The notes under the pieces: generated by a model | Seen by the model: only the letters and a program-made list of their open reading frames with translations | Database searches by the model: none | Told to the model about the DNA's origin: nothing | Made by a program: the position numbers and the translations under genes | Assembly (NCBI RefSeq): GCF_030295405.1 | Contig: NZ_AP027080.1 | Location: 3,642,001-3,706,000 of the forward strand | Source: Mesoterricola silvestris | Lineage (GTDB): Bacteria > Acidobacteriota > Holophagae > Holophagales > Holophagaceae | Direction: 5' to 3' | DNA length: 64,000 nt | Shown here: positions 34,763-50,466 of the stretch, piece after piece | Numbering within the stretch: the stretch's first letter is position 1 | Layout of the letters: each line of letters opens with the position of its first letter

Positions 34763-34879
34763 GGGGGCCTGGGCCACCAGCGTGGCAAAGGGAGCATGGG
34801 CGATAAGAACCAACACTGGGTCAGGCTAGGGATATTTCGACAGAGCCCGGAGCTCTCTGGCCAGTGGGGCTTTTAACCC

Positions 34880-35030
34880 TTTTGCTGTCCCATTGAACGT
34901 AACCAGCGAATGCTATTGAAAGCTTCCTGGTAGCCACGCATTCCCTGAGATAGAGGTTGATTAAGGTTTGGCAAGGGATGGCCATTTCTTGGGAAAGCGC
35001 CTTGATGGTGTTGCGACTTCGCAAGGAAAA
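34880..35030 (-). pseudogene. C-terminal remnant of a BrnA/CopG-type antitoxin
   Basis: On the minus strand the frame reads FSLRSRNTIKALSQEMAI, then PCQTLINLYLRECVATRK. The QTLINLYLRE pattern is that of BrnA/CopG ribbon-helix-helix antitoxins (usually IPYQTLI). The N-terminal half is missing: upstream of 35030 the frame runs antisense-like through another gene. The break coincides with the distal end of the integron array, so it may mark a deletion scar that also removed the last attC. Identification is tentative. Confidence 0.4.
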
Positions 35031-35040
35031 GGTGTTTCGA

Positions 35041-35472
35041 TTACTTCTTCTCTTCGGTTGAAGGTTGATCTGTGGTTGGTACCTTTGCTTTTGCAATCTC
35101 TGCCTTTTTCTTTTGGGTTGGCAATTTCGCAGCCTTGGCCGCAGCATCGCTGGCAGCCTTCGCATTCTTACCTGCCTGAACCTTGCGGGTTTCTGCATTT
35201 TTTTCGGCGGCCAGATTCGCATGTGCCTTGCGGGATTCGCGTATTGCAATTCGGGCTTGATGATCGGCTTCTTTGTAGGCCAGCTTGGCGGATTTTAGCG
35301 ATTCCATCGCCTTGGAAACATCTGCTTTGGCCTTGGTGACAGCCGCCAATGCAGTTTTCACAGCCGGATCATTGGCGACCTCGGGCGGTAGGCGGCTTGA
35401 ATTGCCAGATAGCAATGGAGCAGCAGAAGCTACAAATACTAAAAGAAACGAGGCGAGGTTTCTTGAACGCAC
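35041..35472 (-). CDS. cassette 13: secreted alanine/lysine-rich coiled-coil protein
   Basis: A 143-residue protein from GTG 35472 with AAGGAG upstream. A signal peptide (NLASFLLVFVASAAPLLSG) is followed by a charged helical region of about 90 residues (AVKTALAAVTKAKADVSKAM, HANLAAEKNAETRK) that should form a coiled coil, and a PTTDQPSTEEKK tail. No enzymatic motif. It is the most distal cassette gene: its start follows the R' end of the attC at 35541-35666, but no attC is found after its stop. Confidence 0.65.
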   Translation of the reverse strand: MRSRNLASFLLVFVASAAPLLSGNSSRLPPEVANDPAVKTALAAVTKAKADVSKAMESLKSAKLAYKEADHQARIAIRESRKAHANLAAEKNAETRKVQAGKNAKAASDAAAKAAKLPTQKKKAEIAKAKVPTTDQPSTEEKK

Positions 35473-35540
35473 TGGGGCTCCTTGAAAAATGTGCTGTTGA
35501 AGGTAAGGCCAAGCGTCTAAGCGCTGGGTGCTGGGAGAAG

Positions 35541-35666
35541 TCTAACGCTGGCGTTGAGCGGCCCCATGCCTGGCGGCGCGTTTGTTGGTGGAGAAAGGAA
35601 TGGAACGCCGAAGAGCTGAAAGGGGCAAGCCAGGTATGGGGTCCGCGCTCGAACGCTGGGTTAGGC
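35541..35666 (-). repeat. attC site 1
   Basis: About 126 bp. The R' end is TCTAACGC in plus orientation and the R'' end is GGGTTAGGC. The inner stem pairs CCCCATGCCTGGC with GCCAGGTATGGGG, a version unique to this site. Confidence 0.88.
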
Positions 35667-35776
35667 AGACAAACTTTGGTGATTTGACTCAGAGTCGCGG
35701 CGCCTTGGAGCAATGCCGCTGGATGTTACTTTGGCGAAGGCAGCGCCAGCGTTAGGAAATAGCCTGGGACAGTGGC

Positions 35777-36151
35777 TCAGTGTAAGACAAAAGGCATGAC
35801 TAGCTGAAAACGAACCGCCCTTGGCCGGCCATTGATGATCGAGGGTTTGAACTTCCATTGTAGGCCATATTGCTCGGCCGTTTGATGAAGTTCTGCTGGG
35901 CCATCTATGGCCTTTGAGCTGACTGTTTCGCCGCGTTCATCGACGATAAAAACAACTGTAACCCGGCCTTGAATGCCCTGCGCTTTGGCTGCTTCCGGGT
36001 AGTGGGGGGACGGTGGCTGGAATCGAATCGTCATGACACCAAAGTCGACATCAAGAATGGCTTGATCAATATTTACGGGTGGTTTGGCGGCTGGTTGAGG
36101 GGTTACGCAGCACATCGTAGATGCCATGAGGATCGGAGCAAGGAATCGCAT
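35777..36151 (-). CDS. cassette 12: TonB C-terminal domain lipoprotein
   Basis: A 124-residue protein. A short lipoprotein-like signal (MRFLAPILMASTMCC) leads into a complete TonB C-terminal fold: HYPEAAKAQGIQGRVTVVFIV near residue 50, VDERGETVSSKAIDGPAEL near 70 and WKFKPSIINGRPRAVRFQLVMPF near 98. The usual TonB N-terminal transmembrane helix and proline-rich spacer are absent, so energy transduction with ExbBD is unlikely; stand-alone TonB-C proteins of this size are common but of unknown role. Flanked by attC sites 1 and 2. Confidence 0.82.
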   Translation of the reverse strand: MRFLAPILMASTMCCVTPQPAAKPPVNIDQAILDVDFGVMTIRFQPPSPHYPEAAKAQGIQGRVTVVFIVDERGETVSSKAIDGPAELHQTAEQYGLQWKFKPSIINGRPRAVRFQLVMPFVLH

Positions 36152-36217
36152 TTTGGAGCCTGTTGAGTTCGGTCGGATGGGTTACGCAGCGGGATTAATC
36201 GTTGCGTGCTGGTTGAT

Positions 36218-36343
36218 GCCTAACGCCGAAGTTGAGTCGGACCCAACCTGGCGGCGCGAGTGGAGGAGAAGGGAGGTTGGAATGACGATACCACCAAGGG
36301 GAGACGCGCAGGTTGGGGTCCGACCTCGAACGCTGGGTTAGGG
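36218..36343 (-). repeat. attC site 2
   Basis: 126 bp; starts GCCTAACGCC, ends GGGTTAGGG. Class A: CCCCAACC(T)-type inner stem partnered by GGTTGGGG. Confidence 0.9.
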
Positions 36344-36527
36344 CCGGCGCGTGGACAGTACCTAGTTGGGAAGGCGCGGTGGGATTGGCGTTCAGCTGAA
36401 TCGCCCGGAGGAGGGGAAGGACGCTGATTGCCGATCGGGTTGCGGCTTGCCCTGCTGAGTAGGCGGGTCCAGCGCACCCTTGCCCGCACCTCCTTTGGAG
36501 CGGCCGTAACCCGTGCAACCAAAGGAT

Positions 36528-36857
36528 TCAATCGACAATGAAGAGCTTGGCACCGCCGTTGGTAGATGAACGGTGAGCTTCCGCATTATCTGCGACTTGA
36601 TAGCTCATGCCAGGCTTCAAAACAAAGGACCGGCCATCATCGAGCTCGGTGAGGAGCTCACCTTCAACGCAAAGCAGAATGTGGCCCTTTCTGCACCAAT
36701 GGTTTGCCTTATAACCCGGAGAGTATTCAACCATTCGCACCCGGATGCCATTAAAAGTTTTCGTTCGCCAAGAGGCAGAACCCGTTTCCCCCACATGCTC
36801 TGTGGATTCAACGAGGGTCCAGTCGGTAATGCCAAAAGGAGTAGCGGAGATCTGCAC
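36528..36857 (-). CDS. cassette 11: small cupin (DHCW-motif type)
   Basis: A 109-residue single-domain cupin from GTG 36857 with a GGAGG Shine-Dalgarno. The first cupin motif is YKANHWCRKGHILLCVEGEL near residue 50, and the second is the LKPGMSYQVADN segment near 82, ending EAHRSSTNGGAKLFIVD. It matches the DHCW-motif cupin family, with Asn in place of the first Asp. His and Cys residues could bind a metal. Biochemical role unknown. About 184 bp of the cassette lie between the stop and attC 2, containing the conserved pre-attC extension. Confidence 0.78.
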   Translation of the reverse strand: MQISATPFGITDWTLVESTEHVGETGSASWRTKTFNGIRVRMVEYSPGYKANHWCRKGHILLCVEGELLTELDDGRSFVLKPGMSYQVADNAEAHRSSTNGGAKLFIVD

Positions 36858-36907
36858 ATTGCCTCCGTGGGAAACACCAACGATTGAAGTGGGGAGTGGT
36901 GGGTGAT

Positions 36908-37033
36908 GCCTAACGCCGAAGTTGACCGGCCCCAGCCTGGCGGCGCGGTTGAAGGAGAAGGCATACGGAAGATGCCGAAATCATAGCAGGAGCCGCTGGC
37001 GGCTGGGGTCCGGGGTCGAACGCAATGTTAGGC
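36908..37033 (-). repeat. attC site 3
   Basis: 126 bp; starts GCCTAACGCC, ends ATGTTAGGC. Class C: inner stem CCCCAGCC / GGCTGGGG and a GTTGACCGG left arm. Confidence 0.9.
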
Positions 37034-37050
37034 GCTCAATGGAGTTATCG

Positions 37051-37249
37051 CTAAAACACCTGGAAATTTGGATCGAGGCGAGCATTCAATGCTTTGATAA
37101 GTTCCTTGGTGCGATTCCCATATGGCCACATGGGGGCATTGACGCATGACCTACGGATTGTCTTTCCCCCACAATCCAGCTCCATAAGTGCGTTTGTGCC
37201 ATCGGTTGTGTATAAAAGCTTCTGTAAGTTAGCCCCCGCGCCATTCCAG
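37051..37249 (-). pseudogene. cassette 10 gene, C-terminal half, cut by IS256-family element
   Basis: The minus-strand frame from the insertion element reads TWNGAGANLQKLLYTTDG, ALMELDCGGKTIRRSC and PMWPYGNRTKELIKALNARL to a stop at 37051. The other half lies at 38790-39116. Joined, the pieces give a secreted protein of about 170 residues with a DGT...CGG...C pattern. An ATG inside the insertion element makes a chimeric 91-residue frame that is unlikely to be functional. Confidence 0.7.
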
Positions 37250-38789
37250 GTGTCCGGGTAGCAAAGGGGCCACTGGCTCCAGTAGGTTTGAAGTTGCGAG
37301 CAAGCAAGCCTACGAAAGGAAGCCAATGGCCGAGTTGAAGTTTGAGGTCCCCGAGGGGACTGTGGAAGGACTGTTTTCGCAGCCAGGAGGCGAGGGCTTC
37401 CGAGTGCTGGTGGAAGCCGTGGCCCAGGCCCTGATCAACAGCCAGGCCGACGCCCATTTCGAGGCGCCCTGGAACGCCCGGGGCATGGAACGGCCTAACG
37501 GCTATCGCAATGGCTACAAGGATCGTGGCTTCCAGACCGTGGCCGGCGCCCTGGAGCTATCTGTACCGCAGGCCCGGAACGGCTCCTTCCGGCCGGCCCT
37601 ATTCGAGCGCTGGCAGAGATCCGAGCGCGCCCTGCTGGCCGCTTGCGGCCAGATGGTGCTGGCCGGGGTGTCCAACCGGAACGTGAGCAGGCTGGCGGAG
37701 GAGGCCTTCGGGGCAGAGGTCAGTCCCAGCCTGGTATCCCAGATCCTAAAGGACATCGAGCCGGCCGTGGAAGCGTTTCGGACCCGGCCCTTGGGTGCCT
37801 TTCCGTATCTCCTCGTTGACGCCCGGTTCGACAAAGTCCGGGAAGGCCACCGCGTCCGCAGCCGGGCCTTCCTATGGGCTGCTGGGGTCAACGAGAAGGG
37901 GGAGCGAGAGGTCCTGGGCTGGCTGGATTGGGGCGGAGAGACCGAGGTGGCCTGGGAGGGCCTGTTCAAGGACCTGAAGGGTCGTGGCCTGCATGGGGTC
38001 GACCTGCTGGTCTCGGACGCCCACGAGGGCCTCTGCCAGGCCGCGACGAAGGCGTTTCCCGGATCGAGCTGGCAGGAGTGCCAGGCGCACTTCCTCCGCA
38101 GGTCGATCGAGCAGGTCAAGGCGGCGGACCAGAAGGCCTTCCGGGAAGACGTGAGGGCCGTGCTCCACGCCGTGGACTACGTCCGGTCGCAGGAGTTGCT
38201 CGGTCTGCTGAGGGCGCGCTGGGAGGAGAAATCGCCCAAGGCAGTGGACTACGTGGAGGAGCACCTGGACAGCCTCCAGGCCGTCCTGGCGCTACCCGAG
38301 GGCCATCATAAGCGGCTGCGGACGACCAATATGGTCGAGCGATTCAACCAGGAGCTGAAGCGAAAGAGCCGACTGGTGCGGGTTTGGCCCAATGCGGAAA
38401 GCCGGGAACGCGTCTACGGGGCGCTTCTCATGGAACAGAACGAGGCCTGGACCGGCCAGGCATGGGTGCACATGGGGGGACCGGCGTGATCTTGTTCCTA
38501 TGGTCGCTCCATGCCCTGATGGCGCCGACCCATGCTCTGTGGAGCGTGCTCAGGCATGGAAAGCCTGTGGACTGCGCTTCGCGCACCGGCCCTGCGGGCC
38601 TGCCCGCACCCTTTCCACACCCTCGGGCTGCGCCTGGAGACCGCTGCGCGTTCTCCACATGCCCCACAGCGGATGGTCATCAGCAGGAATCTGATCGGTT
38701 TCGCCGGGCCGGGCGGGGTCCGCCTGCGGCTGCCCGCCCTAGACTGAGGAAATCCCTACTGGAGCGGACTTACAGAAAATTCTGGACAC
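37250..38789 (+). mobile_element. IS256-family insertion sequence
   Basis: About 1540 bp. The left end begins GTGTCCGGGTAGC and the right end finishes ATTCTGGACAC; both terminal repeats share GTGTCC at the tip and GCTCCAGTAGG about 30 bp inside, with a less conserved middle. One intact transposase gene lies within. No target duplication of 8-9 bp is visible at the ends as drawn, so the ends may be off by a few bases or the element has recombined. It splits a cassette gene. Confidence 0.8.
37326..38489 (+). CDS. IS256-family (Mutator-type) transposase
   Basis: A 387-residue protein. Mutator-type landmarks: ERPNGYRNGYKDRGFQTVAG near residue 57, LSVPQARNGSFRPALFERWQR near 78, the first catalytic Asp in YLLVDARFDKVREGHRV near 160, the second in GVDLLVSDAHEGL near 225, and the conserved Glu region RTTNMVERFNQELKRKSR near 340. 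It appears complete and could be active. It is in plus orientation, opposite to the cassette gene it interrupts. Confidence 0.95.
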   Translation: MAELKFEVPEGTVEGLFSQPGGEGFRVLVEAVAQALINSQADAHFEAPWNARGMERPNGYRNGYKDRGFQTVAGALELSVPQARNGSFRPALFERWQRSERALLAACGQMVLAGVSNRNVSRLAEEAFGAEVSPSLVSQILKDIEPAVEAFRTRPLGAFPYLLVDARFDKVREGHRVRSRAFLWAAGVNEKGEREVLGWLDWGGETEVAWEGLFKDLKGRGLHGVDLLVSDAHEGLCQAATKAFPGSSWQECQAHFLRRSIEQVKAADQKAFREDVRAVLHAVDYVRSQELLGLLRARWEEKSPKAVDYVEEHLDSLQAVLALPEGHHKRLRTTNMVERFNQELKRKSRLVRVWPNAESRERVYGALLMEQNEAWTGQAWVHMGGPA

Positions 38790-39116
38790 AACTGTGCCAT
38801 CGGCCCACCACCCAGTAGGCTTCTCAGAGAAATCTGAAGCTGCCTTAGCGAGCCCAAGAATTCTCAGCGTCACTTCCTGGGGAATGACGGTTTGGAAGAC
38901 TGCCTCAGTTAGCTTCCCCTGGTCTGTGAAAGGCATCCCTCTCTTGGTGACATTCAACGTTCCATCCCGCGAAAGTGAAAGCAGAAACTCGTCAGCTCCA
39001 GGCAACCCACCGCCGGTGTGCAGTTTCATGGATCGTGGTTCACCAGCCACGACCGTGGACATGGCGAGCCCAGCGATTACTGCAATTCGGGTTGGAAAAG
39101 CGAAGACAAGTCTCAT
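38790..39116 (-). pseudogene. cassette 10 gene, N-terminal half, cut by IS256-family element
   Basis: From an ATG at 39116 the frame starts with a signal peptide (FAFPTRIAVIAGLAMSTVVAG) and continues PGADEFLLSLSRDGTLNVT, QTVIPQEVTLRILGLAKAA and KPTGWWADGT, where the insertion element begins. The truncated reading frame ends inside the element at 38739. The remaining half is at 37051-37249. Intact, it would be a periplasmic or exported protein of unknown function. Confidence 0.7.
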
Positions 39117-39156
39117 CGGGGTGCTCTTAACGCTGAATTAATTCGGTGTGGGTGCT

Positions 39157-39282
39157 GCCTAACGCCGAAGTTGAGTCGGCCCCAACCTTGCGGCGCGAGT
39201 GGAGGAGAAGGAAGGTTGGAAAGACGATACCACCAAGGGGAGAAGTGCAGGTTGGGGTCCGACCTCGAACGCTGGGTTAGGA
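39157..39282 (-). repeat. attC site 4
   Basis: 126 bp; starts GCCTAACGCC, ends GGGTTAGGA. Class A. A lone TTAACGCTGAA half-site remnant lies just outside at 39127. Confidence 0.9.
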
Positions 39283-39355
39283 CCGGCACGCACAAATTCC
39301 CTCGTTGGGGCGGCGCCGTGGGACTGGGATTCGAGGTTAAAATCCTGCTGGAATT

Positions 39356-39745
39356 TTACTTGGGTTTTACCAGAGAAATGGCACGTTTGACTGCCTGAAT
39401 AATCTCAGGGTTTGAGTTCATCGGTGGAAATTGGTCGCAATACTTCGAAGCCCGGCGAAGCGCTTCTATTGAGTTGGGGTTGTCGTGTTTAAAGTGCTCG
39501 ACGTAAATCCCAAGACTGGTGATGTCGCCTGCGAGGAGGATTTCCTGCTCAGCAATTGCCTCCTCGTTTTTGGCGGTCCTAAGCTGTCGAAGGAGCCGAA
39601 CGCGTTCAAATGTTGATGCGCAATACCGCCATTCAGAAGTTTCCGCATTGGATTTGATCCTATACCTGGTTGCCAGCCACCCTCCGACAATGCCGCCGAT
39701 AATGGCCGTCGCGATTGGAATAATGATGTGCCGGTTTACGCGCAT
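39356..39745 (-). CDS. cassette 9: hypothetical single-pass membrane protein
   Basis: A 129-residue protein starting 7 bp from attC site 5; its Shine-Dalgarno is the AGGA of that site's R' box (GTTAGGA then ATCCAC then ATG). One N-terminal helix (HIIIPIATAIIGGIVGGWLA) anchors a soluble helical domain (TFERVRLLRQLRTAKNEEAI, LGIYVEHFKHDN). Not recognised; the family is unknown to me. Lower GC than core genes, as for most cassettes here. Confidence 0.68.
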   Translation of the reverse strand: MRVNRHIIIPIATAIIGGIVGGWLATRYRIKSNAETSEWRYCASTFERVRLLRQLRTAKNEEAIAEQEILLAGDITSLGIYVEHFKHDNPNSIEALRRASKYCDQFPPMNSNPEIIQAVKRAISLVKPK

Positions 39746-39751
39746 GTGGAT

Positions 39752-39877
39752 TCCTAACGCCGAAGTTGAGTCGGCCCCAACCTGGAGGCGCGAGTGGGGG
39801 AGAGGGGAGGCAGGAACGACGATACCACCAAGGGGAGAAGGGCAGGTTGGGGTCCGACCTCGAACGCTGGGTTAGGA
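39752..39877 (-). repeat. attC site 5
   Basis: 126 bp; starts TCCTAACGCC, ends GGTTAGGA. Class A. Confidence 0.9.
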
Positions 39878-40050
39878 CCGGCGCGTGAATAGCACCTCGT
39901 TGGGGCGGCGCAGAGAAGCCCGCCTACCCCTACCGTGGCCTTTGAGGGAGTCGCTTCAGGACACGGCGCGAAGGGCAATGCCGGTGAAAAGGTGCCAGGG
40001 ATGTAGGTAACAAGCAAAGACCCTTACATTGATTTGCGCCCCGCATTCGT

Positions 40051-40401
40051 TCAACGATTTGGCCCCATGCAAATCATGAGGATGAAGAGCAACAGGATGG
40101 TTGTGTTCCAGGCCAGAATGCAAAGACGCAAACGGCGAAGATATTTCAGGGCCTCGGGTACAGTCTCCGCCCATGTAGGCGTCTTAAAAAGGAGCCGGAA
40201 GGAAAGTCGATTAACGGCAAGGCGGCTTCTGATGGCGGTGCATTCAGGTGCCCTCCAAATGAAGCCGCTTGGCTTACCATCGGCTTCCCAATCTTTTCGG
40301 GCAGACTCGTACTCAAGACGGATTACCTGATCGAATGAAAGGAAGCCGAGGATTAGGACGGCGAGAGCAGGGATCATGATTACTGGGAACAGGAACTCCA
40401 A
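40051..40401 (-). CDS. cassette 8: hypothetical two-helix membrane protein
   Basis: A 116-residue protein from TTG 40401 (GAGGAAATCACA upstream). Helix one is FLFPVIMIPALAVLILGFLSF, helix two is ILAWNTTILLLFILMICMG near the C-terminus. The loop contains ARKDWEADGKPSGFIWRAPE, a W-x-x-D-G-K-P pattern I have seen in small uncharacterised membrane proteins. Function unknown. Downstream of the half-sites at 40452-40515 and followed by attC site 5. Confidence 0.62.
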   Translation of the reverse strand: MEFLFPVIMIPALAVLILGFLSFDQVIRLEYESARKDWEADGKPSGFIWRAPECTAIRSRLAVNRLSFRLLFKTPTWAETVPEALKYLRRLRLCILAWNTTILLLFILMICMGPNR

Positions 40402-40451
40402 TTGTGATTTCCTCGGTGGTGTCTGGCCCTGAATGGGGAGGTGGTGGGTGG

Positions 40452-40515
40452 TCCTAACGCTGACTGGGCTTGTGCTAGGAACCGCCTAACGCTGACTGGG
40501 CTGTGGCTGCGTGAA
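40452..40515 (-). repeat. two tandem attC half-sites
   Basis: CCTAACGCTGACTGGGCT occurs twice in a row (40452 and 40484), each an R' end without its R'' partner. The ACGCTGACTGGGCTG unit also occurs in the two copies of the geneless cassette. These look like scars of past deletion or one-ended recombination. Confidence 0.6.
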
Positions 40516-40638
40516 GCCTAACGCCCGGCTTGACCGGCCCCAAAGTGGCGGCGCCGTTGGCGGAGAAGGATGGTGGGGTTCGAGGAGACTCGGTGGGATG
40601 AATGCACTTTGGGGTCCGGGTCGAAGCGATGGTTAGGC
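40516..40638 (-). repeat. attC site 6
   Basis: 123 bp; starts GCCTAACGCC, ends GGTTAGGC. Class B: inner stem CCCCAAAGTG / CACTTTGGGG. Confidence 0.88.
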
Positions 40639-40728
40639 AGACGGGGGTTTCGTGATGAGACCCGAGAACCGGCGCGGTGGGGCAATGCCGCTGGGTGGAA
40701 CGACTGCATAGGGGACAATTGAGGATAA

Positions 40729-40790
40729 GCCTAACGCCCTTTGGCCTGGCAGGTAAGGTACCTCTGGCCAGTTCTGGCTGACGAGGTGAG
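40729..40790 (-). repeat. attC half-site
   Basis: GCCTAACGCCCTTTGGCC begins as an R' end, but no GTTAG-type R'' end follows within 150 bp. It separates attC site 6 from the higBA genes. Confidence 0.45.
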
Positions 40791-40861
40791 GGTGAAGAAG
40801 GCGAATTCATCCTTGCACGGTATTCGTGTATGTCTATCATGAAGGGATAGGAGGCTGGCGA

Positions 40862-41152
40862 GTGATTGTGACCTTTGGCGATTTGTCAACGAAGGCCCTT
40901 TACGACGGCAGCCCCCGGAAGGACTTCAAAGCCATTCCTCCTAACATCCACAGTTCAGCGCTGAGGAAGCTCGACATGCTCAATGCTGCAACGACCCTTG
41001 GTGATTTGCGGTCGCCGCCAGGCAACCGTCTTGAGGCCCTTGAGGGAGATTTGGCGGGCTGGCACAGCATTCGGATCAACGATCAATGGCGAATCATATT
41101 CCGCTGGCAAGGTTCCGACGCTGCAGACGTTCATATAGTCGATTACCACTGA
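40862..41152 (+). CDS. higB: cassette 7: HigB-type RelE/ParE toxin
   Basis: A 96-residue toxin from GTG 40862 with a strong AGGAGG Shine-Dalgarno; a longer frame from 40826 lacks one. The family pattern is complete: VIVTFGDLSTKALYDG near the start, FKAIPPNIHSSALRKLDML near 21, DLRSPPGNRLEALEGDLAG near 48, and WHSIRINDQWRIIF near 68, ending in VDYH. HigB is a ribosome-dependent mRNA interferase. Together with higA it forms a toxin-antitoxin cassette that lies opposite to the array and must carry its own promoter. Confidence 0.92.
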   Translation: MIVTFGDLSTKALYDGSPRKDFKAIPPNIHSSALRKLDMLNAATTLGDLRSPPGNRLEALEGDLAGWHSIRINDQWRIIFRWQGSDAADVHIVDYH

Positions 41153-41159
41153 GGCTGCC

Positions 41160-41447
41160 ATGATTCCGACCCACCGCATTCCGACCCATCCGGGAGAAAT
41201 CCTCCTTGAGGAGTTCCTGGTGCCGATGGCCATCACCCAGGTTCATCTGGCAGGCCATATCGGGGTACCTACGCAGCGGGTTAATGAATTGATCCGCGGC
41301 AAGCGTGGGGTGACGCCTGATACTGCCTGGTTGCTGAGCAAGGCCTTTAGCACCAGCCCTGAATTTTGGCTGAACCTGCAAACTGCATATGACCTAGCCA
41401 AGGCTCGTCCCCATCGAACGATCAGACCAATGGGGAAGGTCAGCTAG
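41160..41447 (+). CDS. higA: cassette 7: HigA-type antitoxin
   Basis: A 95-residue XRE-family helix-turn-helix protein. It opens with the HigA signature PTHPGEILLEEFLVPMAITQ, then the recognition region LAGHIGVPTQRVNELIRGKRGVT near residue 38, and ends TSPEFWLNLQTAYDLAKA. It starts 7 bp after higB and neutralises it while repressing the operon. TA cassettes are thought to stabilise integron arrays; here it stands in the middle of the array. Confidence 0.93.
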   Translation: MIPTHRIPTHPGEILLEEFLVPMAITQVHLAGHIGVPTQRVNELIRGKRGVTPDTAWLLSKAFSTSPEFWLNLQTAYDLAKARPHRTIRPMGKVS

Positions 41448-41505
41448 GCATTGATGCGGTTCGTGTTGGGTATACCACGCGCTGAACCGCCGCGGATTGG
41501 GTGAC

Positions 41506-41630
41506 GCCTAACGCCGAAGTTGAGTCGGTCCGAACCTGGCGGCGCGAGTGAAGGAGAAGGGAGGCTGGAATGACGATACCACCAGGGGAGAAGTGCCGGT
41601 TGGGGTCCGACCTCGAACGCTGGGTTAGGA
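41506..41630 (-). repeat. attC site 8
   Basis: 125 bp; starts GCCTAACGCC, ends GGGTTAGGA. Class A with CCGAACC in the left arm and GGTTGGGG on the right. Confidence 0.9.
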
Positions 41631-41642
41631 CCGGCGCGCCCA

Positions 41643-42050
41643 TCATGCCGCGGTAGGACGGCGCCCGAACTCGTTCTTGTGTTTGTGTAACCCAAAGATG
41701 ATGAGACAGTTCACGAACCCTAAAGCGAAGACAAGAAGAACCACTAACCCAAAAGGTGGTTGGGGCTTCATTGGCATTGAATCCACGCCCGCCCATTTAC
41801 CGAGGATCCCGAAGGGAATGATCAGCATCAGGTAGAAGTGAAGGCTGAGGGCCACGAATCTGGCGAGCCTGAACCTTAGCCAGAGCCCAGCCACTAGGCC
41901 TGGCCAGAAAATCAGGCCAATGATGCCGAAGGTCAAGTGTCCGTGAACTACGGCTCGGACGTGCAGACAGGCAAGGAATAGGTAAAAAGCTGAAAGAAGC
42001 CAAAGAACCCATCGAATCGGCAATTCCAGATGCTTAAGGTTTGCCCACAT
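41643..42050 (-). CDS. cassette 6: hypothetical polytopic membrane protein
   Basis: A 135-residue protein with four membrane segments: WVLWLLSAFYLFLACLHV, TFGIIGLIFWPGLVAGLWL, ALSLHFYLMLIIPFGILG and FGLVVLLVFALGFVNCLIIFG. It starts 7 bp from attC site 9, whose R' box (GTTAGGG) supplies the Shine-Dalgarno. Short polar loops, no catalytic motif. Function unknown. Confidence 0.72.
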   Translation of the reverse strand: MWANLKHLELPIRWVLWLLSAFYLFLACLHVRAVVHGHLTFGIIGLIFWPGLVAGLWLRFRLARFVALSLHFYLMLIIPFGILGKWAGVDSMPMKPQPPFGLVVLLVFALGFVNCLIIFGLHKHKNEFGRRPTAA

Positions 42051-42056
42051 GGGATA

Positions 42057-42182
42057 CCCTAACGCTGGCGTTGACCGGCCCCAGCCTGGCGGCGCGGATG
42101 AAGGAGAAGGAAGGTTGAAGATGCCGAAAGCATAGCAGGAGCCACTGAAGGCTGGGGTCCGGGGTCGAACGCATGGTTAGGC
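42057..42182 (-). repeat. attC site 9
   Basis: 126 bp; starts CCCTAACGC, ends TGGTTAGGC. Class C: inner stem CCCCAGCCT / GGCTGGGG. Confidence 0.9.
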
Positions 42183-42243
42183 AGTCGGCGAAGAGAAAGA
42201 CCTTGCGAGTTCGCGGCGCGATGGGGCAATGCCGCAGGGTAGG

Positions 42244-42720
42244 TTACCGATTTGGGATTCGTGGGGGCCGAAGCTTGGTGTGGCATTTTTGCGCCTCGGC
42301 CTGAGCAAGGTTCAGTAGATATGCCTTCATCATGGCATATTGCCTATCGTCATAAATGCAGATGTGGTATCGGAAGATCTCGTCATCAGAGGTTCGAAAT
42401 GAGCAGATTTCTCGTACTCCGTAACCCTTTCCGAGTTCTTTAAAGTCCTTCGGCAACTTCTCGTCAAAACAGTCTTCGATGATGGTGCCGAACACCTCGC
42501 GAATCGGGATAGGGACAGAGTACCCCTTGATTTGGATTGTTCGTGGATCATCAATGCCTCGGACAAGTTCCGCGACAGGCGGAAGATGGTCTTCGAGGCT
42601 GTAAATGTACCGGGCAAGCCCCGGGACCGTTTTCACTTTACGCAGGCGCTCGATTGAACCTGCCATGGCTGGTGACACGATCAGGCCTGCAAGTAGAAAA
42701 GCGAGCAAATGACAACGCAT
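42244..42720 (-). CDS. cassette 5: hypothetical exported protein
   Basis: A 158-residue protein with a signal peptide (LLAFLLAGLIVSPAMAG). The mature part holds RKVKTVPGLARYIYSLEDH, IPIREVFGTIIEDCFDEKL and FRYHICIYDDRQYAMMKAYL; two of its cysteines could pair outside the cytoplasm. Its Shine-Dalgarno (TTAGGT) comes from the R' half-site at 42729, immediately before the start. Not recognised. Confidence 0.65.
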   Translation of the reverse strand: MRCHLLAFLLAGLIVSPAMAGSIERLRKVKTVPGLARYIYSLEDHLPPVAELVRGIDDPRTIQIKGYSVPIPIREVFGTIIEDCFDEKLPKDFKELGKGYGVREICSFRTSDDEIFRYHICIYDDRQYAMMKAYLLNLAQAEAQKCHTKLRPPRIPNR

Positions 42721-42728
42721 GGGAAATA

Positions 42729-42759
42729 CCTAACGCAGAAATGATGCGGGCTGGGTGAT
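42729..42759 (-). repeat. attC half-site
   Basis: CCTAACGCAGAAATGATG is a second R'-like end directly beside attC site 10 and lacks its own R''. It provides the Shine-Dalgarno of the cassette 5 gene. Confidence 0.5.
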
Positions 42760-42882
42760 GCCTAACGCAGAAGCTGACCGGCCCCAAAGTGGCGGCGCGG
42801 TTGGCGGAGAAGGACGATGGGGTTCAAGGAGCGCTGGTGGCATGAAGGCACTTTGGGGTCCGGGTCGAGCGCAAGGTTAGGC
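42760..42882 (-). repeat. attC site 10
   Basis: 123 bp; starts GCCTAACGC, ends GGTTAGGC. Class B: inner stem CCCCAAAGTG / CACTTTGGGG. Confidence 0.9.
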
Positions 42883-42979
42883 AGACGGACGTTTGGTGAT
42901 GTGATCCAAGGCGCGGCGCGATGGGGCAATGCCGCTGGGCGGAACGACTGCGACGGGAGCGATGGTGCAAAGGGCGGCG

Positions 42980-43558
42980 TCACTTTGGGCAGGGTTCAGA
43001 GAAACTGGTGAATTTCATTTTTCCTGGGGGACGGTGCATTCTCGTGATTCGTTTGATTTCGCCGCCAGTGGTGACTTGATAGATGATTTTGAACTCGGTA
43101 GGGAGGCCGGGCTGATCACTGTGCCCTTCGGCACCAACTTCCAAGACGTTCGGTGATAGCCAACGTCTGCCAACGACATAGTAGTGGATATTCCAGATGT
43201 CATCCGGGAAGGCCTTGAGGATCAGGCCATCGATGGAAAGTTGATTTTGAGGTGCGGAGAGGTTGATGATCATTGATTCTGCGACGTTTGACCCAGGGTA
43301 ATCGGTCAAAGCTAATGTGGCGCTGTCTGGCGACCAGAGAGCGGTCAAGTAGCGGTCGAAATGGTAAATTTCACTTTCTGATTTACCTTTCAGGCACCTA
43401 AGAATCAAATGGAAATCCTCTGAACCTGGCTTGCCTAGACAGAAGATTTCATATTCGCCATTCGGCGAGCGAAGTCGCTGTTTGCTTGGCCAACGCCCTT
43501 CCTTAGCCTGCCCAAAGGTGGTGAGGGCGACGATGAGGAGCAATAGAAGGGCTTTCAC
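42980..43558 (-). CDS. cassette 4: hypothetical exported protein
   Basis: A 192-residue protein from GTG 43558 (AGGAAG upstream) with a signal peptide (ALLLLLIVALTTFGQA). The mature part alternates short strands: RLRSPNGEYEIFCLG near residue 28, WSPDSATLALTDYPGSN near 75 and VGRRWLSPNVLEVGAEGH near 128. The SPDS...LALTD motif resembles a WD/TolB-like propeller blade, too short for a complete propeller. Function unknown. Confidence 0.68.
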   Translation of the reverse strand: MKALLLLLIVALTTFGQAKEGRWPSKQRLRSPNGEYEIFCLGKPGSEDFHLILRCLKGKSESEIYHFDRYLTALWSPDSATLALTDYPGSNVAESMIINLSAPQNQLSIDGLILKAFPDDIWNIHYYVVGRRWLSPNVLEVGAEGHSDQPGLPTEFKIIYQVTTGGEIKRITRMHRPPGKMKFTSFSEPCPK

Positions 43559-43596
43559 GATGCTTCCTGGCGATTAATTGCTGCGGGCTGGGGGAT

Positions 43597-43722
43597 GCCT
43601 AACGCCGAAGTTGAGTCGGCCCCAACCTGGCGGCGCGAGTGGAGGAGAAGGGAGGTTGGAATGACGATACCACCAAGGGGAGAAGTGCAGGTTGGGGTCT
43701 GACCTCGAACGCTTGGTTAGGA
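43597..43722 (-). repeat. attC site 11
   Basis: 126 bp; starts GCCTAACGCC, ends GGTTAGGA. Class A, with a TTGGTTAGG R'' end shared only with attC site 13. Confidence 0.92.
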
Positions 43723-43987
43723 CCGGCGCGTGAATATTACCTCGTTGGGACGACGCGGTGGGATAGGCGCGCAGTTGAAGCGCCCGGAGGTTGACGTCGC
43801 TGATTGCAGATCGAGCTGCTGCTTGCCCTGGTGATGTAGCTCTGGGCTTTTCTCCCACTGAGGCCGGCGCGGATAAGCCCGCCTACCTTGACCTTCGAGC
43901 GATCCGCAGCGTGACGCGGCGCAATGCGGGGCCCTCGGGTTCAGCTCGCCCCCTGCCCTCACGCTGACTGGGCTGGGGCTTGGTGAA
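43723..43987 (-). repeat. cassette 3: geneless cassette, second copy
   Basis: 265 bp without a credible gene. Together with attC site 11 it matches the segment 44589-44986 over about 398 bp with no difference I can see. It begins with the conserved ACCGGCGCG extension and ends CTGGGGCTTGGTGAA before the next attC. Confidence 0.85.
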
Positions 43988-44113
43988 GCCTAACGCACGG
44001 CTTGACCGGCCCCAGCCCTGGCGGCGCTGTCAGCGGAGAAGTTCGATTGGAGATGACGAAGAACTGATTGGGGTGAAACAGGGCTGGGGTCCGAGTCGAA
44101 GCGATGGTTAGGC
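43988..44113 (-). repeat. attC site 12
   Basis: 126 bp; starts GCCTAACGCA, ends TGGTTAGGC. Class B/C intermediate: inner stem CCCCAGCCCTGG / CAGGGCTGGGG. Confidence 0.9.
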
Positions 44114-44258
44114 AGGCGATGGCTCTGTGATGAGACCCGAGACGCGGCGTGATACGTCAATACCGCTGGGTGGAACAACTGCAATGGTAACGATGGGGGG
44201 AATGCTACCACCCTTCTGCACGTGAATATGCTGGGTTGCTAGGCAATTGCGACCTCGA

Positions 44259-44549
44259 TTAGAAGTAAACCCAAGTGCCTCGGCTACCCTCAAATTCAAA
44301 TTCGGCCTGGTCAATGGCTTCGGCAATTGCGGAGTGCCAGGTATCGGAGCAGACAACCCAGTTTGCATCACACCCGAAGAGGTAAAAGGAGCCCTCGCCT
44401 TTGTCGTGGCAAATGGCAAGGCCGGAGGATGGTTCAAGTTTTGGGTTTGCTACTCGATGAGCCGTGCTGCCTGTTTGGCGATGGCGGCCATCAATCGGTG
44501 TGAAGCAAACGACTTCTATCCCACCGAGTTCTCTTGGGCAAGCGACCAT
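44259..44549 (-). CDS. cassette 2: hypothetical protein
   Basis: A 96-residue protein. Its C-terminal half, FYLFGCDANWVVCSDTWH then SAIAEAIDQAEFEFEG, has the look of small immunity-like or uncharacterised proteins with an alpha/beta fold and ends in a W-x-Y-F tail. No signal or membrane helix. The cassette sits between the two identical geneless cassettes. Confidence 0.6.
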   Translation of the reverse strand: MVACPRELGGIEVVCFTPIDGRHRQTGSTAHRVANPKLEPSSGLAICHDKGEGSFYLFGCDANWVVCSDTWHSAIAEAIDQAEFEFEGSRGTWVYF

Positions 44550-44588
44550 TGTTTATGCCTCAATGAGAATTGCTGGGAGATGGGAGAT

Positions 44589-44714
44589 GCCTAACGCCGA
44601 AGTTGAGTCGGCCCCAACCTGGCGGCGCGAGTGGAGGAGAAGGGAGGTTGGAATGACGATACCACCAAGGGGAGAAGTGCAGGTTGGGGTCTGACCTCGA
44701 ACGCTTGGTTAGGA
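44589..44714 (-). repeat. attC site 13
   Basis: 126 bp; starts GCCTAACGCC, ends GGTTAGGA. Class A, identical by eye to attC site 11. It is the first attC after the head of the array. Confidence 0.92.
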
Positions 44715-44979
44715 CCGGCGCGTGAATATTACCTCGTTGGGACGACGCGGTGGGATAGGCGCGCAGTTGAAGCGCCCGGAGGTTGACGTCGCTGATTGCA
44801 GATCGAGCTGCTGCTTGCCCTGGTGATGTAGCTCTGGGCTTTTCTCCCACTGAGGCCGGCGCGGATAAGCCCGCCTACCTTGACCTTCGAGCGATCCGCA
44901 GCGTGACGCGGCGCAATGCGGGGCCCTCGGGTTCAGCTCGCCCCCTGCCCTCACGCTGACTGGGCTGGGGCTTGGTGAA
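44715..44979 (-). repeat. cassette 1: geneless cassette, first copy
   Basis: 265 bp with no gene; the head-proximal copy of the 398-bp duplicated cassette. It lies directly against the attI-like core at 44980-44986. A promoter function for the array is possible but no clear -35/-10 pair was found. Confidence 0.85.
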
Positions 44980-45353
44980 GCCTAACCATAATTGGGTGTC
45001 GGACGGGGAATCGAACGCTGGCGTGTAAAGACCGGGAAATTTATTGGCCCGCACCGTCTGGGGTGAGTCGGTATTAACGCATTGGGTGGACTTGGGCGCG
45101 TCGCTTCGGGAGGGCAGTTTTCTTCATTCTGCATTGGCTTGGACGCACATGCAAAAGGTTCCGGACGGATGTCGTTCCGGGATTGGGCGACCGTGGGGAT
45201 GCCGCCTATTCCGGGCTGGATCCGGATTAGGCGACGAGCTCGAAGGCGGCCAAAGGGCCTTGGGGAAGGGATTCAGGCGAACAGTCGAAGGTTCAGGACC
45301 TTCGCGGCAAGCCGGGTTTGCCGACCTTGACACGTTTGATGGGAACCCTAGAT
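44980..45353 (-). other. putative attI region and intI upstream region
   Basis: On the minus strand the core site GTTAGGC at 44986-44980 marks the junction of the first cassette with non-cassette DNA. Outside it the sequence continues ATTATGG, then a GGGGAATCGAACGCTGG segment (plus strand) that resembles the L-box of the attC family. No other cassette gene is present. Close to the intI start, TTGACA at 45327 and TAGATA 16 bp further could be an intI promoter, although they would overlap the ATG drawn here. Confidence 0.55.
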
Positions 45354-45704
45354 ATGGCGGAATTCCACGAATCGAGGTCTGCCTTGTCCCCCCTGCCCTT
45401 CCCGTCCGAACCCAGCGCCGGCACCGGAATGCTGGGCTTGGAATCGGATGAGGCCGATCGTCTTGGCCCGGCCCTATGGCTGCTGGACCGGGTCCGGCAC
45501 TACAGCATCCGCACGGAGGATACGGGGGTGGATTGGATTCGGAAGTTCATTCTTCATCACGGGAAACGCCTTCCCGCGGGCATGGGAGCGGCAGAGGTGA
45601 AAGCCTTCCTGACCCTCCTTGCTTTGGAGGGTTAGGCCCCCGCGGCCACCCAGAACCAAGCGAAGGCCGCCATCCTGTTCCTGTATTCGAGAACCCCGGC
45701 TTAA
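45354..45704 (+). pseudogene. intI: integron integrase intI, truncated and nonsense-interrupted
   Basis: The frame from ATG 45354 has a 40-residue leader, then LLDRVRHYSIRTEDTGVDWI, RKFILHHGKRLPAGMG and AAEVKAFLTLLALEG, then TAG at 45633-45635. In the same frame it goes on APAATQNQAKAAILFLYSRT to 45701. This is the SAM-like N-terminal domain of IntI (compare the HYS-RTE-YV-WI-RF---H--RHP and TQ-QA--A--FLY patterns). Several residues seem to be missing between LLDRVR and HYSIRTE. The catalytic domain with the R-H-R-Y residues and the IntI-specific patch is gone; the frame stops at the tail of the convergent gene at 45701. Divergent from the array, as in intact integrons. Confidence 0.85.
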
Positions 45705-46309
45705 CCTTTGGCGTTCTTCAGCTTGACAAGATCGCTATGGAACTTGTCCAGGGTCATCTGCAGAGTGAGCACCAGCCGGTCGCAGAGGCCCAGGCACGCC
45801 TTGACCTTGGCGCTCGGGTTGCGATCCCGCTTGATCGCGTCCTTGGCGGTAACCATTTTCCGGCTCAGGTTCTGCAGCCGGGCGCTGCCGAGGATGACAT
45901 CCTTCAGGTCCAGCGCGGAGAGGCGCAGCTTTTCCCGGTCGATGCGGGAGAGGCCGGCGTCGGGGTTGGGCAGGAGGATGCACTTGCGGACGGCCTGGAC
46001 CCAGCTGCGATCGCGCTCCTCGATGAGGCCTTCACTCGCCGCGTCCATGGCCCTCATGGCTTCAAGCATGTCCGCGCGCGGGCTGTTTTCCTGGAGGTAG
46101 GCGCGCACATCCCTCATGAGCCTTCTCCAGTCGGAGACGTCGTCCAGGGGCGTCTTTTCGAAGGGCTTGAGCAGCAGGTTCTCCTGGCCGTAGACCCGGG
46201 TGTGGAGGCTCGTGATCCGCCGGCCGAGATCATCGCCAGCGTCGGCCAGGATGGGCGGCGCACAGAGCACCGCCATGGACGCCGCGAGGGTCCAAGTGGG
46301 TAAACGCAT
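45701..46309 (-). CDS. hypothetical exported helical protein
   Basis: A 202-residue protein with a signal peptide (MRLPTWTLAASMAVLCAPPILA). The mature part is helical and charged: LGRRITSLHTRVYGQENLLL near residue 28, DWRRLMRDVRAYLQEN near 58, ARLQNLSRKMVTAKDAIKRD near 140 and LQMTLDKFHSDLVKLKN at the end. No motif recognised. GC-rich codon use matches the core genome, so it marks the flank of the integron; its tail abuts the intI remnant. Confidence 0.68.
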   Translation of the reverse strand: MRLPTWTLAASMAVLCAPPILADAGDDLGRRITSLHTRVYGQENLLLKPFEKTPLDDVSDWRRLMRDVRAYLQENSPRADMLEAMRAMDAASEGLIEERDRSWVQAVRKCILLPNPDAGLSRIDREKLRLSALDLKDVILGSARLQNLSRKMVTAKDAIKRDRNPSAKVKACLGLCDRLVLTLQMTLDKFHSDLVKLKNAKG

Positions 46310-46413
46310 GGTTCCTCCGTGGATCGAGTAATATTAATTACCCATTATCCCGAATCATAGGCCGCAGGCCCGCGGTGGCAAGCCGCGGTTTCCCAGCCCG
46401 CCCCGGAGCGGGG

Positions 46414-47757
46414 CTACGGCTTCAGGATGTCCTTGTGGATGCGGCCGTCCTTCATGATCACGACGAAATTCCTGTCCGCGTCCTCCACCAGCTTGAGGTC
46501 GGCCAGGGGATTCCCTTCCACCAGGAGCAGGTCCGCCAGGGCGCCTTCCTCCACCACGCCGAGCCGGCCCGGGTACGGATTGCGGGGGCCCGATAGCGCC
46601 AGGAGCTCGGCGTTGACCCGGGTGGCCATGGCCAGGACCTCGGCGGGCGGGTACCAGCGGCCCATCTTCGCCAGCTGGAAGCCCTGGCGCGCGGCGAGGC
46701 GGGCGTCGAAGAGCACGTCGGTGCCCCAGGCGGTCTTGATGCGGTACTTGCGGGCCAGGGCGTAGGCGGTGTCGGTGCCGTGGCTCATCTGCAGCTGCTT
46801 GGCGCGGTTGTCCGAGCCCGGGGGGAAGGGCGCAGCATCCTCGTCGTCCAGGAAGGGCTGCAGGCAGAGCCAGATGCCCTTTTCGGCCAGGAGCCTGGCG
46901 GTGGGCTCGTCCAGGAGCTGGCCGTGGTCGATGCAGCGCACCCCGCCGCGCACCGCGGTCTGGATGGCCCGGGGCGTGTAGGCGTGGACGGTGACGTACG
47001 TGCCCCAGTTCTCCGCCGCCTCCACGGCGGCGCGGAACTCGGCCTCGGTGTATTGGCTGGCGTCCAGGGGGTCGTAGTTGGAGGATACGCCCCCGCCCGC
47101 GGCCAGCTTGAGGAAGACCGCGCCGTGCATGAACTGCTCCCGGGACCGCAGCCGCACCTCGTCGGGATTGTCGGCGATGGCCGACATGCCCCCCGCCTCG
47201 GGGTGGCTCAGGGCCCCGCCGGGGGTCTTGGGAATCTCGTAGGGCAGGCGGAAATCCCCGTGGCCTCCGGTCTGGGAGATCATGGCGCCGGAGGGCCAGA
47301 TGCGGGGCCCTTCCAGGACGCCCTCGTCGATGGCGCGCTTGAGCCCGAAGACCGGCCCCGACAGGTCCCGGACGCTGGTGAAGCCCCGCATCAGCGTGTT
47401 GCGGGCCTCCCTGCCGGCCACCAGGGTGAGGTAGCCCGGATCCGCCGTCATGCTCACGGAGATGGGCGGCACGGCCAGGGCCGCGTGCCAGTGGGCGTCG
47501 ATGAGCCCCGGCATGAGGGTCCGCCCGCCCCCGGGGATCACCCGCAGCCCCGCCTTCCTCTCCGCGGGCAGGAGGCCCGGGGCGATGCGCTCGATGCGGT
47601 TGCCCCGCACCAGGACGCTGGAGGGGGCGGAAAGCTCCGCCCCCTTGCCGTCGAAGATCCGCACGTTCTCGAAGAGGACCCCGGCGGGTTCAGGGGGCGC
47701 CGCCAGGGCGGCCAGGCCCAGGGCGAGCACGTGGAGAAGGGCGATCCTGCGTCGCAT
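46414..47757 (-). CDS. secreted amidohydrolase family protein
   Basis: A 447-residue protein with a signal peptide (IALLHVLALGLAALAAPPE). It shows the amidohydrolase N-terminal beta-sandwich (VLFENVRIFDGKGAEL), the metal-binding H-x-H in LIDAHWHAALAV near residue 85, a carboxylate-lysine candidate in GAVFLKLAAGGGVSSNYD near 210, HAYTPRAIQTAVRGG near 258, CIDHGQLLDEPT near 275 and the metal Asp in TAWGTDVLFDARLA near 345. It resembles imidazolonepropionase-like and Xaa-Pro/prolidase-type amidohydrolases, so the substrate is likely a cyclic amide or dipeptide in the periplasm. Confidence 0.88.
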   Translation of the reverse strand: MRRRIALLHVLALGLAALAAPPEPAGVLFENVRIFDGKGAELSAPSSVLVRGNRIERIAPGLLPAERKAGLRVIPGGGRTLMPGLIDAHWHAALAVPPISVSMTADPGYLTLVAGREARNTLMRGFTSVRDLSGPVFGLKRAIDEGVLEGPRIWPSGAMISQTGGHGDFRLPYEIPKTPGGALSHPEAGGMSAIADNPDEVRLRSREQFMHGAVFLKLAAGGGVSSNYDPLDASQYTEAEFRAAVEAAENWGTYVTVHAYTPRAIQTAVRGGVRCIDHGQLLDEPTARLLAEKGIWLCLQPFLDDEDAAPFPPGSDNRAKQLQMSHGTDTAYALARKYRIKTAWGTDVLFDARLAARQGFQLAKMGRWYPPAEVLAMATRVNAELLALSGPRNPYPGRLGVVEEGALADLLLVEGNPLADLKLVEDADRNFVVIMKDGRIHKDILKP

Positions 47758-47787
47758 TTCGCCTCCGATGGATGGGATGCGGGAATT

Positions 47788-48876
47788 CTACACCCGGCCG
47801 GAAGCGGCGGGGCCCCGGGATGGGGGCACGGAACGGGATGCCGAATCCCGTTTCAGCAATCGGACAGCGGCTTCCCGGATGGCCTCGGGCTTCACGGCCT
47901 CCCACCGGACTCCGGCCGGGGGCCCGTTCAGGCCAAGGATCTGGGCCAAATCCCGCATTACCAGGCGATTGGCGTACGGGTGCGGCAGGTTGCGTTGATC
48001 GGAAAGGTTCGCGCTGAAGGCCCGCAGCAGCGAGGCCTGGGTGGTCGTCGCCCGGGAAAGCTCGGCCAGCTTGGCGCGGTACTCGAGCTCGGGCTGCTCC
48101 AGCCCCGGGAAGCGGCGGCTGTCCGCGAAGTGCTGGCCTTCATGGACCAGGTAGCTGACGTGGAAGGCCTCCGAGGCGAGGTCATAGCTGCCCTTCAGGC
48201 AGAAGAGGCGGTCCGGACGGGTCCATCCACCCGTATGGTAGGTGTCGCCCGTGGCGAAACCCATCCAGCCCAGGCAAAGGAAGCCGTCCAGCATGACGAC
48301 GCGCACCTCCTCGTGCCCCTCGGGCAGTTCGACGCCAAAGTGCCGTTCCTCCTCCGAAGTCCACAGCATGCATTCGCGGAAGGGGCGGGTGTAGCCGAAG
48401 AGGGCGTGGATGCCCCGCTCCCGAAGCCTGGTCTCCAGGAGGGGTTCCAGGGCGCCCACGCCATCCCCGGGCGACCCGGTCCCGATCTGGGCCAAGGGGG
48501 CCAGGGCCCTGAACAGGTCCCGTTCCGCGGCCTCGGGGGTCGCCTGGCCAAGCATCGCCTGCTTCCAGTAGGCTTCGTAGGCCGCCAGGACGTGGGCCAC
48601 CCAGGGATCCCGGGCCGTGGACGGCCTGGGGGAGGGACTGAACCGCGCAAGGAGGGTCTGGACGGCTTGGGATTGTGCCTTTTCCAGGGCTTCCAAAGGC
48701 AGGGCTTGGAACAGGGGAAGGGCGGTCTTCATATCGCCCTGGAGGGCGGAATTCATGGCTTGGTGGTACGTTTCGACGGCCTGGGCGCCTGCGGTTGAGG
48801 CTGGCGGTTCAGCGGCTGCGCCGGCGCATGAAAGGCACCCTCCGAGGAGAAGGCGGATACTCCAGGATTTCAGCAT
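47788..48876 (-). CDS. exported protein with an HExxH-like motif
   Basis: A 362-residue protein with a signal-like N-terminus (SIRLLLGGCLSCAGAAAE; Cys 18 or nearby could be lipidated). The middle holds SYLVHEGQHFADSRRFPG near residue 228, followed by LEQPELEYRAKLAELSRA. HEGQH fits the zinc-binding HExxH motif, and the Glu in ELEYRAK could be the third ligand, as in gluzincins or Zincin-like DUFs. If so it is an extracytoplasmic metalloprotease. I do not recognise the family. Downstream of an element-containing gap and 30 bp before the amidohydrolase gene on the same strand. Confidence 0.65.
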   Translation of the reverse strand: MLKSWSIRLLLGGCLSCAGAAAEPPASTAGAQAVETYHQAMNSALQGDMKTALPLFQALPLEALEKAQSQAVQTLLARFSPSPRPSTARDPWVAHVLAAYEAYWKQAMLGQATPEAAERDLFRALAPLAQIGTGSPGDGVGALEPLLETRLRERGIHALFGYTRPFRECMLWTSEEERHFGVELPEGHEEVRVVMLDGFLCLGWMGFATGDTYHTGGWTRPDRLFCLKGSYDLASEAFHVSYLVHEGQHFADSRRFPGLEQPELEYRAKLAELSRATTTQASLLRAFSANLSDQRNLPHPYANRLVMRDLAQILGLNGPPAGVRWEAVKPEAIREAAVRLLKRDSASRSVPPSRGPAASGRV

Positions 48877-49793: not shown

Positions 49794-49795
49794 GG

Positions 49796-50365: not shown

Positions 50366-50388
50366 GGGACCTCGAACCTCCAGGATAA

Positions 50389-50404: not shown

Positions 50405-50466
50405 ATCAAGCACTTTCCTCGGCCCCCGCCCGGCCCCACCCCTACAATGGGAACGAGAGCGAGCCC

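Follow-up and report, generated by a model that had tools for sequence, protein, structure and literature searches.

The 64,000-nucleotide stretch of the Mesoterricola silvestris chromosome analysed here (the window; NZ_AP027080.1, positions 3,642,001 to 3,706,000) carries an integron array of thirteen cassettes next to the decayed remnant of its own integrase gene, intI. We consider it likely that this array represents an additional integron platform, the second on this Holophagaceae chromosome, still fed in trans by the integrase of an intact paralogue elsewhere on the same chromosome. The array seems, from sequence comparisons, to have taken up a cassette well after its integrase died: the cassette at the attachment site attI is an exact duplicate of another one, whereas the integrase remnant has accumulated many changes.

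A dead head and its leader

Thirteen cassettes extend leftward from the attI core (44980-44986), carrying small, mostly single and mostly minus-strand genes that for the most part have no known function. The intI remnant stands divergent at the head, on the plus strand against the minus-strand array, just as the first-pass annotation of this DNA had described. It scores 59 bits against the integron integrase profile TIGR02249, for a cut-off of 265, contains one TAG and one TAA stop, and is also matched by Phage_int_SAM_4. Over residues 1-110 it is 73% identical to the intact IntI, with internal deletions visible in the alignment of heads; about two thirds of the gene are missing, and another gene, on the minus strand, ends at 45701. 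The array thus lacks the functional-length intI that makes a complete integron; with at least two attC sites and no intact intI nearby, it is by definition a cluster of attC sites lacking an integron integrase (CALIN).

Among the sequences compared, the closest to this head is that of the intact integron, with 85.6% identity over 736 bp that include a non-coding leader of about 400 bp; the next-best intI reaches 73.5% over 200 bp. M. silvestris has the leader three times (100, 90 and 84% identity), while 59 relatives gave only three marginal matches (E-values from 8e-4 to 7e-3). Because its head resembles the intact one and the leader is present in three copies in the genome, the window array is, judging from sequence, a paralogous platform and not a piece cut from the intact integron. 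The third head, an intI stub with its attI at 2186870-2187475 of the chromosome (L040 1870-2475), is embedded in the intact array, close to the distal end of the latter; its stub ends after about 44 codons.

Twelve attC sites of one family

All twelve attC sites of the window lie on the minus strand (35528-44724), as found both by repeat analysis of the window and with a covariance model, R1. They span 122-126 bp from R'' (CCTAAC) to R' (GTTAG), so that of the 123-126 bp first proposed the upper end holds and the lower end does not. Since R1 was trained on these same twelve sites, their scores of 124.9-160.3 bits are high by construction; the 13 other matches listed for the window reach at most 11.5 bits. 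An independent check comes from elsewhere in the genome, with 13 further sites above 98 bits, all in one other array (2177837-2188129), which also holds a weaker site (31.7 bits). Two lone sites score 80.1 and 85.2 bits, at 2000582 and 2403229 respectively, and the remaining 8 of the 36 matches are weak (E-values 0.65-9.8); as 150 of 5761 first-look candidates were scored, this search may have overlooked weak sites. Above 80 bits, then, 25 of 27 matches fall in the two cassette arrays and two are isolated, and the scattering of repeats without cassette genes that the first annotation had named as grounds for rejecting an integron is not what the genome contains.

The predicted fold is backed by covariation: 19 of 24 pairs changed on both sides, for a mean of 8.0 in shuffled alignments and with none of 500 shuffles as high, and the covariation cells number 97 for a shuffled mean of 21.8. 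The alignment behind these counts (64 sites from this genome and four genus-mates) was fitted to the model and is biased towards structure. Extra unpaired bases are expected in L'' of attC sites, and they are seen by eye when L'' is compared with L' in the window sites, which also have the R''/R' ends and imperfect pairing of attC. The sites share one orientation and each follows one small gene, except for two gene-less cassettes and one plus-strand gene pair. An Rfam scan returned three matches in the window and none in the array; whether Rfam holds an attC family was not established. The proposal of a thirteen-cassette chromosomal integron with twelve attC sites of one orientation and family is borne out.

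An intact integron on the same chromosome

A search for a second intI, which the first-pass annotation had suggested, did find one. It lies at 2175781-2176725 on the minus strand, 1.5 Mb from the window array, looks intact (459.3 bits against TIGR02249, no stops) and adjoins the other array with the same attC family. Residues at the positions of the tyrosine-recombinase catalytic set (R, H, R, H, Y) are invariant in an alignment of this IntI with eight relatives. The prerequisite of mobilisation in trans, an intact-looking integrase of the same attC type in the same cell, is thus present.

The attC sites of the two arrays are intermingled in their similarity. Seven of the twelve window sites have their closest counterpart in the intact array and not in the window, and nine have a match there above the 85.6% identity of the two heads (best 97.6%, lowest 75.9%). 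Among nucleotide matches over 170 bp, gene-less cassettes are the only ones common to both arrays, at 93-94% identity. Ten open reading frames (ORFs) chosen from the intact array gave one Pfam family at E ≤ 0.01, DUF5991.

A cassette probably younger than the decay

All 391 bp of cassette 1, which sits at attI, recur unchanged in cassette 3 (391/391), and both copies are bounded precisely by G|TTAGGC. The identity starts at the attI core, or at the preceding attC core for the other copy, and stops at the next core plus three further bases. The absence of any difference puts the divergence of each copy at no more than about 0.4% (3/782, by arithmetic). On the branch of the remnant, in contrast, 192 coding bases have accumulated 19 changes, of which 7 are silent and 12 are not, and some of which may precede the death of intI; over the same bases the intact copy shows four, with two more unassigned. 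Seven of 34 columns invariant in eight other IntIs are changed in the remnant, against one in the intact copy, and the distal part of the leader has 18 changes in 258 positions on the window branch.

With no difference in 391 bp against 19 changes in 192, the duplication seems much more recent than the bulk of the decay in the remnant. Since its edges are moreover those of integrase-mediated recombination, the enzyme was most likely supplied in trans, and insertion by the intact integrase would be the simplest reading of the timing. Given that the chromosome also carries an intact-looking intI and that the attI of the dead head is occupied by an exact duplicate of another cassette, the array is probably not fixed. 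The first-pass annotation had held that it was, unless an integrase came in trans: it was right about the dead local integrase and probably wrong about fixity.

Recombination of attC sites proceeds through their folded bottom strand. The two heads are paralogous. In the scheme that we propose, the window intI would have died earlier; the full-length IntI of the 2.18-Mb integron would act in trans on the window attC sites and on the orphan attI, and cassettes would thereby still enter the window array, one of them having been inserted at attI after the local integrase was lost.

The same pattern of duplication from core to core occurs in another genus. Genome G025 has a 508-bp cassette twice at 100% identity in a remote array, and the 20 kb fetched around it contain no intI. 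This single example, from one of seven genomes examined, may extend the inference of action in trans to a second genus. Perfect matches in G013 and a contig-end repeat in G036 were left out of this count. A perfect 1411-bp match between the two arrays of G004, considered as a cassette exchange, was dropped as an insertion sequence: its ends are inverted, and its open frame of 400 residues is transposase-like by eye.

A natural signature of activity in trans requires an array for which the earlier death of the local integrase is established, and a decayed pseudogene next to an identical attI-proximal cassette provides a relative clock. The value of this locus lies in its unusually clear relative timing within a known type of integron. 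The intact-looking paralogue in the same cell makes feeding in trans directly testable in one organism.

Alternative explanations

Could the array have been frozen when its integrase died, the identical cassettes being due to gene conversion or to a duplication that preceded this death? The remnant is plainly dead, and a transposase within one cassette and a last cassette without attC are signs of decay. We nevertheless regard a fixed fossil as unlikely, in view of the perfect identity of cassettes so close to a remnant that has changed so much, and of the intact-looking intI. Gene conversion is the main alternative for that identity and could stop where homology stops; however, the two copies of the same cassette in the intact array are only 90% identical and have not been homogenised, so that conversion is not general and would have to be a special case. 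Besides this alternative, several observations weigh against feeding in trans. Clear recent duplications of whole cassettes were not found in six of the seven relatives examined (G036 has one ambiguous case at a contig end). The two arrays have no cassette gene in common among nucleotide matches longer than 170 bp. The likeness of their attC sites could reflect selection through the integrase and not exchange. Finally, the 180 bp or so nearest to attI show no significant extra constraint on the window branch (8/176 changes against 18/258, p 0.41), and the same holds for the intact copy (p 0.12); it is significant only in the third head (p 0.006), which we do not use as evidence.

A different kind of alternative bears on origin alone and leaves room for activity in trans: the island as a whole (about 34.76-50.47 kb) would have been acquired horizontally, in an already dead state, from a close relative that is not among the genomes sampled, the heads being related by descent in that other species and not by duplication in M. 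silvestris. In two of five genus-mates, G004 and G005, clpA directly adjoins the next conserved gene (the aligned parts lie about 230 and 34 bp apart, respectively), so the island is absent there; in G001, G002 and G003 the fetched downstream sequence does not align at this locus, and these are uninformative on the exact site. As clear copies of the leader are confined to the M. silvestris genome among the 60 searched, we consider such a transfer possible, if rather doubtful. That the repeats belong to some other palindromic family, like repetitive extragenic palindromes or miniature inverted-repeat transposable elements, is scarcely credible: they are imperfect palindromes of about 125 bp in one orientation, as such elements might be, yet their R''/R' ends are canonical, they are interspersed with cassette genes and headed by attI and intI, they show covariation, and strong matches are practically confined to the two arrays. 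Returning to an array fed in trans, we see about an even chance that it is a satellite integron, that is, an attI platform that had no integrase for most of the time since it became separate and owes the greater part of its array to the intact paralogue. If so, the third head would be a second satellite, and one integrase would serve several attI platforms in this lineage, like a helper and its dependents.

Cassettes and their boundaries

The features of the array are listed in the table below. The expectation of single small genes mostly on the minus strand proved correct, the exceptions being the HigB/HTH pair, the two gene-less cassettes and the transposase.

Features of the window array, from attI leftward (window coordinates)
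Feature	Position	Strand	Basis
intI remnant: N-terminal third, internal deletions, two stops	45318..45704	+	TIGR02249 59 bits, positions 10-83
attI leader, from intI remnant to first cassette	44980..45384	-	three copies in this genome
attI recombination core, GTTAGGC on minus strand	44980..44986	-	aligned to cores of the two other heads; cassette 1 starts exactly there
Cassette 1, no obvious gene, at attI	44595..44985	-	391/391 identical to cassette 3; edges at G|TTAGGC cores
attC 1	44577..44724	-	R1 159.7 bits
Cassette 2 gene, 96 aa, no assigned function	44259..44549	-	ORF list, domain scan
attC 2	43976..44123	-	R1 127.7 bits
Cassette 3, no obvious gene, identical copy of cassette 1	43603..43993	-	nucleotide comparison
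attC 3	43585..43732	-	R1 160.3 bits
Cassette 4 gene, 192 aa, no assigned function	42980..43558	-	ORF list, domain scan
attC 4	42748..42892	-	R1 136.5 bits
Cassette 5 gene, 158 aa, no assigned function	42244..42720	-	ORF list, domain scan
attC 5	42045..42192	-	R1 142.6 bits
Cassette 6 gene, 135 aa, no assigned function	41643..42050	-	ORF list, domain scan
attC 6	41494..41640	-	R1 143 bits
Cassette 7, HigB-like toxin and HTH_3 antitoxin-like protein, strand opposite to array	40826..41447	+	PF05015 1.8e-22, PF01381 6.7e-7
attC 7	40504..40648	-	R1 128 bits
Cassette 8 gene, 116 aa, no assigned function	40051..40401	-	relative is a cassette gene in G025
attC 8	39740..39887	-	R1 145.4 bits
Cassette 9 gene, 129 aa, no assigned function	39356..39745	-	ORF list, domain scan
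attC 9	39145..39292	-	R1 156.9 bits
Cassette 10 gene, split by insertion sequence	37051..39116	-	two ORF pieces flank transposase; split by eye
Mutator-family transposase within cassette 10	37326..38489	+	PF00872 1.8e-96
attC 10	36896..37043	-	R1 140.5 bits
Cassette 11 gene, cupin-like, under Pfam cut-off	36528..36857	-	PF07883 19.7 bits, cut-off 27.2
attC 11	36206..36353	-	R1 154.5 bits
Cassette 12 gene, TonB C-terminal domain	35777..36151	-	PF03544 3e-14
attC 12	35528..35676	-	R1 124.9 bits
Cassette 13 gene, 143 aa, no attC after it	35041..35472	-	ORF list, R1 search

Toxin-antitoxin pairs in cassettes, such as that of cassette 7, are thought to stabilise arrays. The protein of cassette 8 is 39% identical over 109 residues to that of the exactly duplicated G025 cassette (L192 2721-3228), which suggests that cassette families may circulate between genera. 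None of ten window proteins scanned with PADLOC matched an anti-phage defence system at E ≤ 0.01; this set did not include the genes of cassettes 2 and 12, nor the second piece of the split gene 10.

The gene-less cassette family (43727-43993, minus strand) has four full copies in this genome, distributed over both arrays (among them those at 2181429 and 2186100), and an invariant core of about 30 nucleotides. Several long partial matches occur in both arrays of G004 and only short ones in G005, with no match in the other 57 of the 60 genomes searched. We rejected this cassette as a structured RNA candidate, as it folds no better than shuffled sequences (z +0.74); no promoter-like sites were found within 43500-45750.

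Different cassettes share the stretch directly before R''. When the 25 sites of both arrays were compared, one exact duplicate pair included, 104 of 300 pairs exceeded the 99.5% level of random sequences on this side, and 26 of 300 on the downstream side. The mobile 3' module seems, from this sequence comparison, longer than attC proper. A second core-like GCGT lies exactly 23 nucleotides past R' in 9 of 25 cassettes, for a background of 0.37% per position, and two tandem 32-bp units are found at 40453-40516. The small gene pairs adjoining both lone attC sites resemble toxin-antitoxin genes by eye.

Relatives and locus context

Acidobacteriota were listed among integron-bearing phyla in one study (PMC8618304), and one of eleven taxon-specific attC models described in another is that of Acidobacteria (PMC8352920). 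Integrons are ordinary in Holophagaceae. An intI above cut-off is present in 24 of the 60 genomes (M. silvestris included) and in 22 of the 37 belonging to this family, three of these being partial (G003, G019 and G030); R1 matches at E ≤ 0.01 occur in 21 of 60 and 20 of 37, respectively. The initial view that such an arrangement is rarely described in this type of genome does not survive these counts. Named matches of the genome scan were mostly Holophagaceae and Betaproteobacteria, and the IntIs of the eight aligned relatives are 63-72% identical to the intact one.

The seven genomes compared above were chosen for their many attC matches, and up to 20 kb of each intI-linked and remote array were examined. 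All have remote arrays at a distance from intI. In the parts fetched, none of the seven showed the leader clearly at a remote array, some heads lying beyond contig ends; G030 has one ambiguous 226-bp match.

The array is part of a larger insertion (34763-50466) between clpA and the gene that adjoins it in G004 and G005, which also carries an amidohydrolase and several genes without known function. Outside the array, Rfam identifies a group II intron (21004-22831, minus strand), and a 449-residue ORF resembles its reverse transcriptase by eye. In the small sample of four genomes considered, M. silvestris (G000), G004, G008 and G013, the two arrays of each genome are oriented alike with respect to replication: co-directional in M. 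silvestris and head-on in the other three. Replication direction was assigned by hand, with dnaA as the origin and the terminus assumed opposite; local GC skew gave no information on it.

Comparison with known systems

We found no paper on Holophagaceae integrons in the open-licence part of PubMed Central (PMC), where integron and Geothrix appeared together in a sewage survey, and nothing on cassette duplication in CALINs in the open-licence literature. The integrons of Geothrix and other Holophagaceae resemble those described here in their related IntI, their attC sites detected by R1 and their remote arrays. They differ in that the leader was not clearly found in the fetched parts of a remote array in the seven genomes, whereas the window array has one.

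Sedentary integrons of the Vibrio type have long homogeneous attC sites, small genes without known function and toxin-antitoxin cassettes, and the window array resembles them in each respect. Preferential insertion at attI is reported for V. cholerae (PMC8191803). M. silvestris differs in that its strong attC sites, 12 and 13 in number against about 180 in V. cholerae (PMC8191803), are divided between two arrays, one of which has a dead head.

Like a CALIN, the window array has attC sites and no working integrase; unlike one, it retains its own attI, leader and intI stub. Integrase-less arrays are stated to outnumber complete integrons in bacteria (PMC9668308), and it is stated that CALINs can be mobilised or used in trans (PMC12444791, PMC9668308). 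Inactivation of intI is described as widespread, with more stable arrays in some species (PMC12444791); another study classes almost a third of intI genes as pseudogenes and reports that 20% of bacteria have several integrase genes (PMC2426708). A close parallel in this respect is that of chromosomal integrons with inactivated intI, in Xanthomonas and among intI pseudogenes in general, where stops or deletions broke the gene and the array was kept, as in the window. What distinguishes the M. silvestris array from these is an intact paralogous integron on the same chromosome, together with the sequence signature of a later cassette insertion.

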